Below, piece after piece: positions 34,005-36,838 of a DNA stretch of 64,000 bases (positions within the stretch are counted from its first letter, which is position 1; the number at the start of each line of letters is the position of its first letter). The stretch comes from Natrinema sp. SYSU A 869 (GTDB lineage: Archaea > Halobacteriota > Halobacteria > Halobacteriales > Natrialbaceae). Location of the stretch: positions 3,348,001 through 3,412,000 of the forward strand of contig NZ_CP082249.1 of the NCBI RefSeq assembly GCF_019879105.1, in the 5' to 3' direction. The notes under the pieces were generated by a model. The model ran no database searches, was not told where the DNA came from, and saw only the letters and a list, made by a program, of their open reading frames with translations. Made by a program: the position numbers and the translations under genes.

Positions 34005-34079
34005 AGCGGGATGGGATAGCCAGGAGATTCCGGCGGGCTCATAACCCGCAGATCGGTAGTTCAAATCTACCTCCCGCTA
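34005..34079 (+). tRNA. Initiator tRNA-Met (anticodon CAT)
   Basis: A complete cloverleaf: acceptor AGCGGGA pairs with TCCCGCT, with A as discriminator; the anticodon stem GCGGG/CCCGC carries three stacked G-C pairs next to the loop CTCATAA (CAT at 34040-34042); the T arm is GGTAG TTCAAAT CTACC. The A1-T72 first pair and the three G-C pairs are marks of archaeal initiator tRNA. CCA is not encoded. No intron. A degenerate copy of its 3' third lies 296 bases downstream. Confidence 0.95.
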
Positions 34080-34116
34080 CTTCTCGACGCGAACAACAAC
34101 GAGGAACAGAGTCGTT

Positions 34117-34292
34117 CGAAACGGCTTCGTCGTTTCGTGACTGAGCGAATCAAAGATTCGCGAGGTCGTCGGCGCGTTGCGCCGACTGCAAGCGATTCCT
34201 CCGGAATCGCCCTGTCCGCGAAACCGGTGGTTTCGCTTGATGACGAAAGATGCTCCGCATCTTTCGAACCATGACGAGTGACGTGAGCGTCA
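34117..34292. repeat. Array of consecutive short perfect hairpins
   Basis: Seven inverted repeats follow each other with few bases between them: stems at 34117-34123/34131-34137 (7 bp), 34145-34151/34155-34161 (7 bp, AAA loop), 34168-34175/34179-34186 (8 bp, GTT loop), 34192-34199/34203-34210 (8 bp, TCC loop), 34218-34225/34229-34236 (8 bp, GGT loop), 34244-34253/34257-34266 (10 bp, TCC loop), and 34279-34283/34288-34292 (5 bp). Five have three-base loops. The sequences differ, so this is not a tandem repeat. It has no clear coding frame. It may be a structured RNA, a barrier, or part of a mobile relic. Confidence 0.85.
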
Positions 34293-34351
34293 AAAGTAGT
34301 TCAGAGTAGATTTGAAGTAGACAACGAGGGAGCGAAGCGACCGACGTTGGC

Positions 34352-34396
34352 GTGGTTCAAATCTCCCTCCCGCTATTTCTCGAGGCGAACACTACC
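34352..34396 (+). repeat. Degenerate second copy of the tRNA-Met 3' end
   Basis: This stretch repeats 34056-34100: the T loop and acceptor end of the tRNA (TTCAAATCT, CCTCCCGCTA) plus about 17 flanking bases, with a few mismatches that break the T stem. An inverted fragment (AGATTTGAA at 34308-34316) lies between the copies. Such duplication of a tRNA end is what integration of an element into a tRNA gene leaves behind. Confidence 0.75.
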
Positions 34397-34815
34397 TCTG
34401 CTATCGTCCAGAAACTCCGGACTCGAGGTGATAACTCTCTGAACTCGGATAATCAGAGGTTTGAACGCGACTACCGTCTGCAAACGGCGGAGACAGCTGC
34501 TGTACACACGTGAGAATAGAGAGACGAAGCGGTACCGGAGAAACGGTGACGATGAGCGGCCTGCTATCGTGGCGACAGGGAATGGCCACGCCCTCCCCAG
34601 CCGATTCACTCACTCGCGACACTCGTTCGCTTATCCCTCGCACGGTATCGTCAGCTGTCCTCACTGTCGTTCGGCCAGCCGACAGCGCGCGCCACCGCAT
34701 GTCGGTTGGTCAGGCGGAGTAACACATCGACCACAGATACGGAGTCTGTAATTCGTCGAGGACAGTCCGACGAATCACGATACTGACTGACAGCCGAGAG
34801 GGTCGGTGCTAGCGG
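34397..34815. other. Intergenic region without a recognisable gene
   Basis: About 420 bases between the repeat and the end of the phosphodiesterase-like gene. Overlapping open frames on both strands have no start context or family similarity. No tRNA, hairpin array or clear terminator is visible. Confidence 0.5.
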
Positions 34816-35732
34816 TCAGTCGAGATAGCCGAGTTCGCGCAGGCGGTCGGTCGGCATATCGATCCCCTCGTCGGTACCGGACGCGCCCGTGCCGGACTCC
34901 GCCGCGCGTTCCTCCGCCCACCGCCGCACGTCGTAGACCGATTTCGGATAGGTATCTGCCGTGGAACTCGCGTACGCGCGCCAGGAGTGACTCGCCGGTT
35001 TCTCGCCCGCGTCGGGCGGATAGAATGCGGCGCGCATGCCGTGATCGCTGACGACGAGGAGTTCGTCGTCCTCACCGAGGGCGGCGACGATTTCATCGAC
35101 GAACCCGCCGACGCGGTCGTAGGCGCGGCCCAATGCGTCCTCGTCGTCGGCGTAGGCATGGCCCGCCGCATCCAACGTGTGGACGTGGACCCCGGCGATC
35201 GAGACCGGGTGTTTGAGCATCTCGCGGGCCCAGCCAAACTGCTGGGCACAGAGGCCGAACAGTTCGCGCTCGAACTCGCTTCGGGACATCCCCTCCGCCA
35301 CGGCATTCATCAGGTCCCAGGCGCGCTGGAGTGGCCGGCCATCGTGGACGCCCGGCCAGTTGTGGACGACCGCGTCGTCGGCGTCGAACATCGACTCGCG
35401 GTCCGTCTCGCCGATGCGCTCGCGCGTGCCGGTCCGTGACCGAACGAGTTGCCGAGCGTCCCCCGAGTCGACTCGTCGAGGCGACCAGTGACCGTCGAGG
35501 CAAGGTCGAGCGCCGGATTCGCCCACTCGCTAGTCCCGCCGCCGGTGATCCCATGTTCGGCCGGCTCGAGCCCGGTCGCGACGGTCGCCCAGACCTCTGG
35601 CGTGTACGGAACGTCCTGCGTGTTCGCGAAGGTCTCGATCTCGCCGCCCGACTCGAGGCGGACGGCGTCGAGGTCGAAGTGGTCGACCAGTCCGGCATCG
35701 AGCGCGTCGAGCGCCAGTACGACAACCGTCAT
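34816..35732 (-). pseudogene. Alkaline-phosphatase-superfamily (phosphodiesterase-like) protein, single frameshift
   Basis: The two frames join into about 305 residues. The N-terminal frame starts MTVVVLALDALDAGLVDHF (metal Asp) and has DVPYTPEVWATVATGLEPAEHG, with Thr at the nucleophile position. The C-terminal frame has IAGVHVHTLDAAGHAY and LLVVSDHGMRAAFYPP, the metal-binding His/Asp sites, and ends TDRLRELGYLD. Layout resembles nucleotide pyrophosphatase/phosphodiesterases rather than long sulfatases. The break lies near 35428-35440; one added base in the short GG run at 35431-35432 joins SFGHGP to GTRERIGETD. Its ATG overlaps the stop of the next sulfatase-like gene as ATGA, so it is the last gene of the coupled operon. 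Confidence 0.75.
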
Positions 35733-36838
35733 GCGTATCCCAGGTCCTCCAGATCTTCCTGCAGTGCGTCTTCCTTGACGACGTAGGCGGGATCGAACCG
35801 CTCGAATTCCCGCTCGAGGCTGGGGTCGTCCACCGGTTCGGTATCCTCGAGTCGATATGTTCCCTCGCCAGTCGTGATGTGATCGGCTGACATCGCGGCC
35901 TTTCGGTCCCCGTAGGCGGCGAAGGCGATTTCGCGATCGAGCGTGCCGACGCCGTGTTCGGAGCCGGTCAGGATTGTCGGAACGTCGACCAGCGAGACGA
36001 CCTCGCCGAGATCGGGGGCGTTCCGCGTGCCGAACGGGACGTTCAGGAGTTCCGGGCGCATCTCGCCAGGATGGCCCCACAGCCCGTCCTCACCGAGCAG
36101 TTCACCGTGGTCGCCACAGAAGACGATGCGCGTCCCGTCCGGGATCGCGTCCCAGAGGGTCTCGAGACGGGCATCGAGGTCGACGACTTCCTGTCGGTAG
36201 AGCTCTCGGACGGCGGTCTCGTCCTCGTCGGATCCGCGGCCTGAGAGCACGCGGCGGGTGAGCCGCTGTGCTGTCGCCCGGTCGATATCCGCGCCGTCCG
36301 GATCGTACGGATGGTGGGGTTCCATGAAGTGCAGCCAGCCGAACCACTCCTCGCGGCCGTCGATCTCGGCCAGGAACTGATCGACGACGGCGTCCGCGGG
36401 CCGGAACGACTTCTCGGTCTCCTCAACGTAGCTCCGGAGCTGCTGGTATCGGTTGTAGCCCCAACTGGCGATCTTGTAGGGGAGCGATCCCCGCTCGAGC
36501 AAGATTGCACCCTTGTCCTTCAGCGACTCGCCGCCGCCTTTCGGCGACGTGAACGAGTCGAAGCCGGCCGCGTAGCCGTACTCCTGGGAGAGCAGATGAT
36601 TTGTCGTGATCCCGACGCAGGGGGCGTCGAACTCGTGGGCGACGCTCGCCGCCGACTCAAGTCCGTTCCCGGCCGGATACTCCCCGCCGATAATCGCCGG
36701 GAAGCTGCCGGGTGTCGCGGTGCTCGTGGCGAAGGCGGCATCGTGGGTGTTGTCCAGAAAGTCCAGAGTTCGGGGCATGTACTGGACGTGATCGGTCCTG
36801 AGTGAATCGACCGTGACTAGCAGGGTAGTATCCGTCAT
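35729..36838 (-). CDS. Sulfatase-like alkaline-phosphatase-superfamily protein
   Basis: A 369-residue intact member. TTLLVTVDSLRTDHV gives the first metal Asp, STATPGSFPAIIGGEYPAG the nucleophile region with Thr and no formylglycine Cys, WFGWLHFMEPHHPYDP the core, and IVFCGDHGELLGEDGLWGH the second metal site. It ends QEDLEDLGYA. It overlaps the phosphodiesterase-like gene by ATGA and follows the 500-residue member after 61 bases. The product probably acts on a phosphate- or sulfate-bearing group of the glycan made here. No signal peptide, so it likely works inside the cell or is membrane-associated. Confidence 0.8.
   Translation of the reverse strand: MTDTTLLVTVDSLRTDHVQYMPRTLDFLDNTHDAAFATSTATPGSFPAIIGGEYPAGNGLESAASVAHEFDAPCVGITTNHLLSQEYGYAAGFDSFTSPKGGGESLKDKGAILLERGSLPYKIASWGYNRYQQLRSYVEETEKSFRPADAVVDQFLAEIDGREEWFGWLHFMEPHHPYDPDGADIDRATAQRLTRRVLSGRGSDEDETAVRELYRQEVVDLDARLETLWDAIPDGTRIVFCGDHGELLGEDGLWGHPGEMRPELLNVPFGTRNAPDLGEVVSLVDVPTILTGSEHGVGTLDREIAFAAYGDRKAAMSADHITTGEGTYRLEDTEPVDDPSLEREFERFDPAYVVKEDALQEDLEDLGYA

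Follow-up and report, generated by a model that had tools for sequence, protein, structure and literature searches.

A hairpin row behind a haloarchaeal initiator tRNA gene, read as a probable copy of a class-wide, non-autonomous mobile repeat

What keeps a row of short, perfect hairpins, each of a different sequence, behind the initiator tRNA gene of a haloarchaeon? The row lies in a 64,000-nucleotide stretch of the 5.67-Mb genome of Natrinema sp. SYSU A 869 (G000:C3:3348001-3412000), which we call the window and in which all positions are counted unless a contig is named. An earlier note had counted seven hairpins here and proposed three explanations for them: a multi-hairpin RNA, a protein-binding DNA array or a non-autonomous mobile element. 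We dissected the row, searched for its relatives and compared sites with and without it.

Anatomy of the row and its empty sites

The row is a unit of 160 bp on the forward strand (34112-34271) that runs from TCGTT to AACCA and contains six hairpins. The first, H1 (34117-34137), is preceded by a conserved GTCGTT and has a perfect stem of 7 bp with a nominal loop of 7 nt; allowing one G.T pair extends it to a 9-bp stem with a 3-nt loop, CGAAACGGC ttc GTCGTTTCG. The other five are perfect: H2 (34145-34161), GCGAATC aaa GATTCGC, 7 bp; H3 (34168-34186), GTCGGCGC gtt GCGCCGAC, 8 bp; H4 (34192-34210), GCGATTCC tcc GGAATCGC, 8 bp; H5 (34218-34236), GCGAAACC ggt GGTTTCGC, 8 bp; and H6 (34244-34266), CGAAAGATGC tcc GCATCTTTCG, 10 bp, which is followed by AACCA. 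Their loops are exactly the AAA, GTT, TCC, GGT and TCC listed in the earlier note. All features lie on the forward strand, and the hairpins are separated by the spacers tgactga (34138-34144), gaggtc (34162-34167), tgcaa (34187-34191), cctgtcc (34211-34217) and ttgatga (34237-34243). The first, second and fifth of these are conserved, tgactga in copies from several families of the Halobacteria. The two ends of the unit form short imperfect terminal inverted repeats, TCGTTCGAAA...TTTCGAACCA, with one mismatch in the first five bases.

These hairpins are real and far above chance. On the forward strand the row folds at -95.7 kcal/mol, compared with -70.5 +/- 4.6 in shuffled sequences (z -5.5, 0/200), and the reverse strand reaches a z of -4.9 against its shuffles. 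In 1.2 Mb of the same chromosome we counted 7 arrays of at least three triloop hairpins and 76 triloop stems of at least 9 bp, compared with 0 and 14, respectively, in a first-order Markov control. Inspection ruled out a CRISPR or a tandem repeat, and the listed open reading frames do not reach over the row, which rules out a coding region, in agreement with what the earlier note had said on all three. When the Rfam 15 families were searched over the window at the gathering score, only the tRNA matched, and no family matched the hairpin row.

The host gene is an initiator tRNA-Met (CAT) on the forward strand, which ARAGORN places at 34005-34080 and Rfam RF00005 at 34005-34079. The unit splits a hairpin in the trailer of this tRNA into a 5' part (34080-34111), ending ...AACAGAG^, and a 3' part (34272-34296), beginning ^tGACGAGTGACGTGAGCGTCAAAAG. 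All seven hairpins of the earlier count exist, six of them making up the unit; the seventh, TGACG tgag CGTCA (about 34279-34292), belongs to the 3' part of the trailer and is a remnant of the interrupted hairpin. The homologous trailer is uninterrupted at two other loci (L058 and L059). At one of them, in genome G011 (L059), window positions 34005-34111 and 34273-34370 align to adjacent bases (1498 and 1496), and the empty site is contiguous and exact to one base. Three genomes (G001, G009 and G014) are syntenic without the unit, being collinear from 32705 to about 33796 on one side and from about 34800 to 36000 on the other; collinear flanks without the row are seen at the loci L058, L060 and L063. 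The pair of empty and filled trailers reveals no target-site duplication.

The surroundings hold other repeats. A partial copy of the tRNA 3' end (34352-34391; 40 bp, 90% identity) lies 296 bp downstream. Such partial copies, comprising the T-arm and acceptor strand, are found behind tRNA genes in many species of the genus, where the host tRNAs include initiator Met, Val, Asp, Ser and others; sometimes two or three stand in tandem with hairpins in between (L038 1448-1470 and 1626-1646; L021; L024; L027; L067, L071, L076, L082 and L084). Just downstream, at 34556-34700, is another dispersed palindromic repeat (cctgctatcgtggc...ccacgccctccccagccgattc...), which is shared with the syntenic loci L058 and L063.

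A dispersed family and its target

The initiator-tRNA site is only one of many at which the unit is inserted. BLAST with the locus found 28 places in the same genome, mostly matching the row itself and in both orientations, and a second BLAST search gave 25 matches there and copies in most members of the genus; the own-genome counts come from BLAST and from searches by a covariance model (R1), which scores a palindromic place once on each strand. The copies follow a common grammar, gtcgtt [H1] tgactga [H2] gaggtc [H3] tgcaa [H4] cctgtcc [H5] ttgatga [H6] aaccac. Four-hairpin copies of 109-113 bp consist of H1, H2, H5 and H6 and lack H3 and H4, and two-hairpin copies, such as one of 54 bp, consist of H1 and H6. 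The earlier note had been struck by one form in different sequences, and this holds for the family: stems and loops vary among copies, and the 5-7-nt spacers are nearly fixed. Some copies sit in the loop of another hairpin, as in GTCGGCGCGAAG^[TCGTT...]^CGCCGAC (L020 and L026, reverse strand) and GCGGGAGCGAAG^[TCGTT...AACCA]^CTCCCGC (L009); the arrays therefore nest. A second hairpin-array family, gttag[CGCGGAACC...]aaccatgcga[ACGGGCGC...]gagcagaaatcgg, occurs in this genome (L024, C3:733657-733706; C3:85485; C3:786655; C3:1395764) and in at least one other of the genus, and is also represented at L048 2458-2507.

The R1 model was built from 13 four-hairpin copies. It matches the unit itself at G000:C3:3382111-3382272 (window 34111-34272; E 5e-18), 28 of the 29 genomes of the genus, the exception being G001, and 236 of 292 sampled Halobacteria genomes, which represent 67 of the 77 class genera. 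When the phylum as a whole was sampled for a control, almost every Halobacteria genome in the sample matched (at least 22 among those listed), and outside the class weak matches appeared in two of roughly 120 genomes (E 1.5e-5 and 7e-5). Copies with the same spacers are present in several other families of the Halobacteria. The exact spacer pattern was found at four places in genome contigs, in Halostagnicola and Halovivax; it matched none of the viral contigs searched, and phage records yielded no copy. Named copies occupy unannotated gaps in plasmids of Natronorubrum bangense and Natronosalvus amylolyticus. The earlier note had suggested a covariance-model search and would have given up its reading had there been no relatives with stem-preserving changes and no transcript or recurrence elsewhere; such relatives and recurrence both turned up. 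As judged by these matches, the unit has apparently spread through nearly all salt-loving archaea and seems to be mobile.

Pairs of empty and filled sites define how the unit sits in its target. An IS605-family tnpA gene of the same genome is empty at GGAG^CGACAG in one copy (L228) and carries a 54-bp two-hairpin unit there in another (L230), inserted without target duplication. The IS605 end palindrome CCTCGGGG^CTTGACCCCGAGG is empty in both of these copies and filled at the same point in L195, L199, L190 and others; this CCTCGGGG^...^CTTGACCCCGAGG class of copies occurs in several genera, and most copies of the unit are located elsewhere. A module found at 3' ends of genes, TTTTGCTCTG^CGGGCC, is empty in L015 and filled in L039. 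At all such sites the ends are TCGTT and AACCA (or GACGA), and target duplication is absent. Insertions were found in the trailers of tRNAs, at 3' ends of genes, in the ends of IS605 elements, in one IS605 tnpA gene and within further copies of the unit; many of the 3'-end copies have their context and orientation in common and possibly spread as larger blocks, and hence do not count as independent insertions.

Among 54 distinct junctions, G occupies position -1 in 50, C position +1 in 50, and C position -5 in 44, compared with a chromosome background of 0.30 for the last. Collapsing the junctions by eye left about 21 independent sites, 15 of which have C at -5 (p 1e-4). The target is CNNNG^C, in which the first C and the G make up the pair that closes a triloop and the last C is the base after it. 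At L034, L163, L212 and L213 and at the nested sites, CNNNG^C is the top of a real hairpin. A general folding test on reconstructed empty sites gave no enrichment of hairpin loops (0.30 compared with 0.32 at random G^C sites), and we therefore restrict insertion into hairpin loops to particular sites. Complementary flanks of at least 7 bp were only slightly commoner (22 compared with 13 with mispaired flanks). General targeting of hairpin loops is rejected on these two results.

Two kinds of locus deserve separate mention. Long composite hairpin modules stand directly behind stop codons at L011, L012, L013, L015 and L017, with relatives at L039 and L181-L188; they have an outer TTTTGC...GCAAAA stem, the hairpins CAAAAGAGCGC, GCGATTCC and GTCGGGCGGC recur in them, and they end near ...gatgaaaagcactcctccctcc. 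One of them follows a gene with a GGMGGMM-like tail in two genera (L039 and L183). Furthermore, two genomes contain a 414-nt tnpA match that includes a single internal TGA (G000:C2:335797-336210, L230; G015:C4:156122-156535). The length in G000 is due to the 54-bp hairpin unit, and the interrupted IS copy may therefore have spread or been inherited.

Upkeep of the arms and movement of the unit

Among 90 non-identical copies, 96.5% of 2871 stem pair cells are Watson-Crick, and changes from the commonest pair comprise 532 compensated double changes, 247 of them of the transversion type, and 71 single-sided ones; the cells are sequences rather than events and many copies are related, so these figures describe a pattern and not independent trials. 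In RNA helices G-U pairs are normally tolerated. In the same cells G-T mispairs (33) are no commoner than A-C mispairs (24), and the derivation of R1 from well-paired copies biases these statistics towards pairing, not towards A-C over G-T. When near relatives have identical stems and differing loops, the loops are exact reverse complements of each other in 55 of 161 cases. GNA or TNC accounts for 70% of the triloops; the d(GCGAAGC) mini-hairpin, which is very stable, has a GNA loop. Because arms change together, G-T does not exceed A-C and loops invert, we infer that the hairpins are maintained at the level of DNA. The pattern points to template switching in DNA rather than to a wobble-tolerant RNA helix. 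In the parts of the reports drawn on here, template switching is described as homogenising the arms of inverted repeats and inverting their spacers (PMC8604942) and as creating and maintaining hairpins (PMC8794818). The earlier note had seen selection for structure in the row and had proposed to look for compensating changes in the stems. Such stem-preserving changes abound; a DNA process that homogenises arms and flips loops explains them better than selection on an RNA does.

Taken together, we consider it likely that the row is a copy of a haloarchaeal mobile repeat that is non-coding and non-autonomous, resembles the SMR-A repeats and has its arms kept by template switching. We read the family best as a variant of the SMR-type non-autonomous mobile elements that extends across the class and nests in itself. 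Among the three original proposals, the mobile element is favoured by the recurrence, the empty sites, the defined ends and the lack of target duplication. Each unit strings together 2, 4, 6 or more short DNA hairpins, starts with TCGTT, ends with AACCA and lies at CNNNG^C with its target unduplicated, at the top of a triloop hairpin where one exists. In the mechanism that we propose, template switching within a DNA hairpin at replication would keep the arms perfect, homogenise them and invert the loops, such that varied sequences in one form could arise with no need for selection on a transcript. Movement would proceed through a folded single strand and be catalysed in trans by an enzyme of the host or of an insertion sequence. 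The leading candidate for the mobiliser may be an IS200/IS605-type Y1 transposase, at which copy numbers hint faintly: across the 29 genomes, the count of Y1 transposase genes rises with that of R1 matches (Spearman 0.50, p 0.006; partial correlation for genome size, 0.47). General mobile-element load explains this correlation equally well. Eight of the 29 genomes have no Y1 transposase gene, and seven of those eight still have 4-24 R1 matches. Two questions thereby become testable: which enzyme moves a hairpin array that carries no transposase, and whether DNA template switching keeps hairpins perfect without selection on RNA.

A bolder version, which we hold only tentatively, is that the family is ancient and class-wide, contains nothing but linked hairpins, is defined by its fold, nests in itself by targeting the top of triloop mini-hairpins, and is moved by an unrecognised enzyme. 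Insertion at CNNNG^C, often of the GCGAAGC type, would then create new targets within the hairpins of the element itself, branched arrays would grow, and template switching at replication would keep all arms perfect. If true, what defines this mobile element would be the fold of its DNA and not its sequence.

Other explanations and known systems

The explanation that survives best outside the mobile-element readings, although we regard it as unlikely, is a structured RNA: the row would be part of the tRNA trailer transcript or of the 3' untranslated region of a gene, and its stems kept for an RNA fold serving processing, termination, stability or as a protein-binding scaffold. This would account for the strong fold, the plentiful compensatory changes and the many copies that share one orientation right after stop codons and have an outer TTTTGC...GCAAAA stem. 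However, an excess of G-T is lacking, arms shift together without single-sided intermediates, loops invert, both strands fold well, one copy splits a tnpA gene and tRNA trailers without the unit exist. The multi-hairpin RNA proposed at the outset thus loses ground, above all to the concerted double changes, the similar numbers of G-T and A-C, and the loop inversions. The case carries a warning: new structured RNAs are usually recognised by strong folds and plentiful compensatory changes, and a DNA process can give rise to both.

Sequence conservation alone would suggest an array serving host DNA architecture or protein binding, in which the spacers would be binding sites and the hairpins would extrude as cruciforms, since the spacers are better conserved than the stems across Halobacteria families. 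A host scaffold would not be expected at positions that differ erratically between strains, in nested copies or within a coding gene, however, and one member of the genus (G001) has no copy at all; we find this array improbable.

Slightly more improbable still is an ordinary palindrome-associated transposable element (PATE), that is, an IS200/IS605 element that has lost its core and that TnpA moves by way of the element's own palindromes. The lack of target duplication, the near-terminal hairpins, the single-strand logic and the correlation with Y1 transposase counts would suit it, and the unit resembles PATEs, as far as they are described in the source consulted, in its palindromes and in carrying no gene. 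PATEs are IS605 relics whose ends are the IS605 end palindrome and which, by the definition given there, have no terminal inverted repeats (PMC3119063). By contrast, the hairpins and ends of the unit are unlike the CCTCGGGGcttgaCCCCGAGG IS605 end palindromes seen here, the unit inserts into those palindromes, and it bears short imperfect terminal inverted repeats; membership thus fails on two counts. IS605 ends are not supported as the source of the hairpins either: in 22 loci with Y1_Tnp or TnpB genes, strong R1 matches are lacking apart from that to the 54-bp unit within tnpA (E 4e-5).

We give very little credence to the relic of an integrase-type element (plasmid or pleolipovirus) with 34352-34391 as its second attachment site, for although tRNA genes are classic integration targets and a 40-bp tRNA copy does lie downstream, relatives have one or more partial tRNA 3' copies and no hairpin row, the empty site of G011 among them, which strongly weakens this rival, the row ends at 34112 and 34271 inside the trailer and not at tRNA copies, and it recurs at many places without a tRNA.

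The unit was compared with several described systems; the open-access literature searched yielded no description of haloarchaeal hairpin arrays. A MITE of a known transposon with terminal inverted repeats carries that transposon's terminal repeats and, as a rule, generates a target duplication. Here, duplication is absent at tnpA and at the initiator tRNA trailer, in a comparison that covered part of the transposons of the genome. REP/BIME elements, which are linked to RAYT transposases, are likewise short extragenic palindromes, mostly behind genes and often grouped, and their palindromes measure 20-40 bp and bear a GTAG or CGTC tag next to the hairpin (PMC3733652); the unit differs in that it has 2 to 6 or more different hairpins and is archaeal, and its five spacers are not these tags, so it is not a REP. 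Mitochondrial repetitive and double-hairpin elements are also dispersed, probably selfish units that merge into larger clusters (PMC2800124). Their stems are conserved and their loops vary by substitution, whereas in the unit stems vary in concert and loops invert. Template switching at quasipalindromes, as described in the parts of the two reports cited above (PMC8604942 and PMC8794818), leaves the same signature of arm homogenisation and spacer inversion; being a mutational process and not a mobile element, it would explain the upkeep of the hairpins but not their spread.

The closest likeness is to the SMR-A repeats HqIRS42, HqIRS43 and HqIRS55 of Haloquadratum walsbyi (Dyall-Smith et al. 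2011, PMC3119063). According to the passages on them, these are about 110 bp long, have terminal inverted repeats, cause no target duplication and insert into palindromes close to the ends of IS605 elements and PATEs, their mobilisation being called 'enigmatic'. Four-hairpin copies of the unit have a matching length, with variants of 54 and 160 bp, and carry no transposase gene; terminal inverted repeats are present (TCGTTCGAAA...TTTCGAACCA), and duplication is absent in the pairs at the initiator tRNA trailer, tnpA and the IS605 palindrome. Near-terminal palindromes of IS605 and PATEs are targets of only a minority of copies; SMR-A, as described there, go mostly to such targets, whereas the unit also enters tRNA trailers, 3' ends of genes and its own kind. 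The same descriptions mention no hairpin arrays with conserved spacers. Haloquadratum plasmid PL47 holds no copy of the unit, and no Haloquadratum genomes were identified among the 391 sampled. Likened by description and not by sequence, the unit works like SMR-A in all the features compared, and we claim no identity with the three named repeats. On this likeness, a type of haloarchaeal mobile repeat whose movement was enigmatic in 2011 now has an anatomy, defined ends, a target rule and a class-wide distribution.
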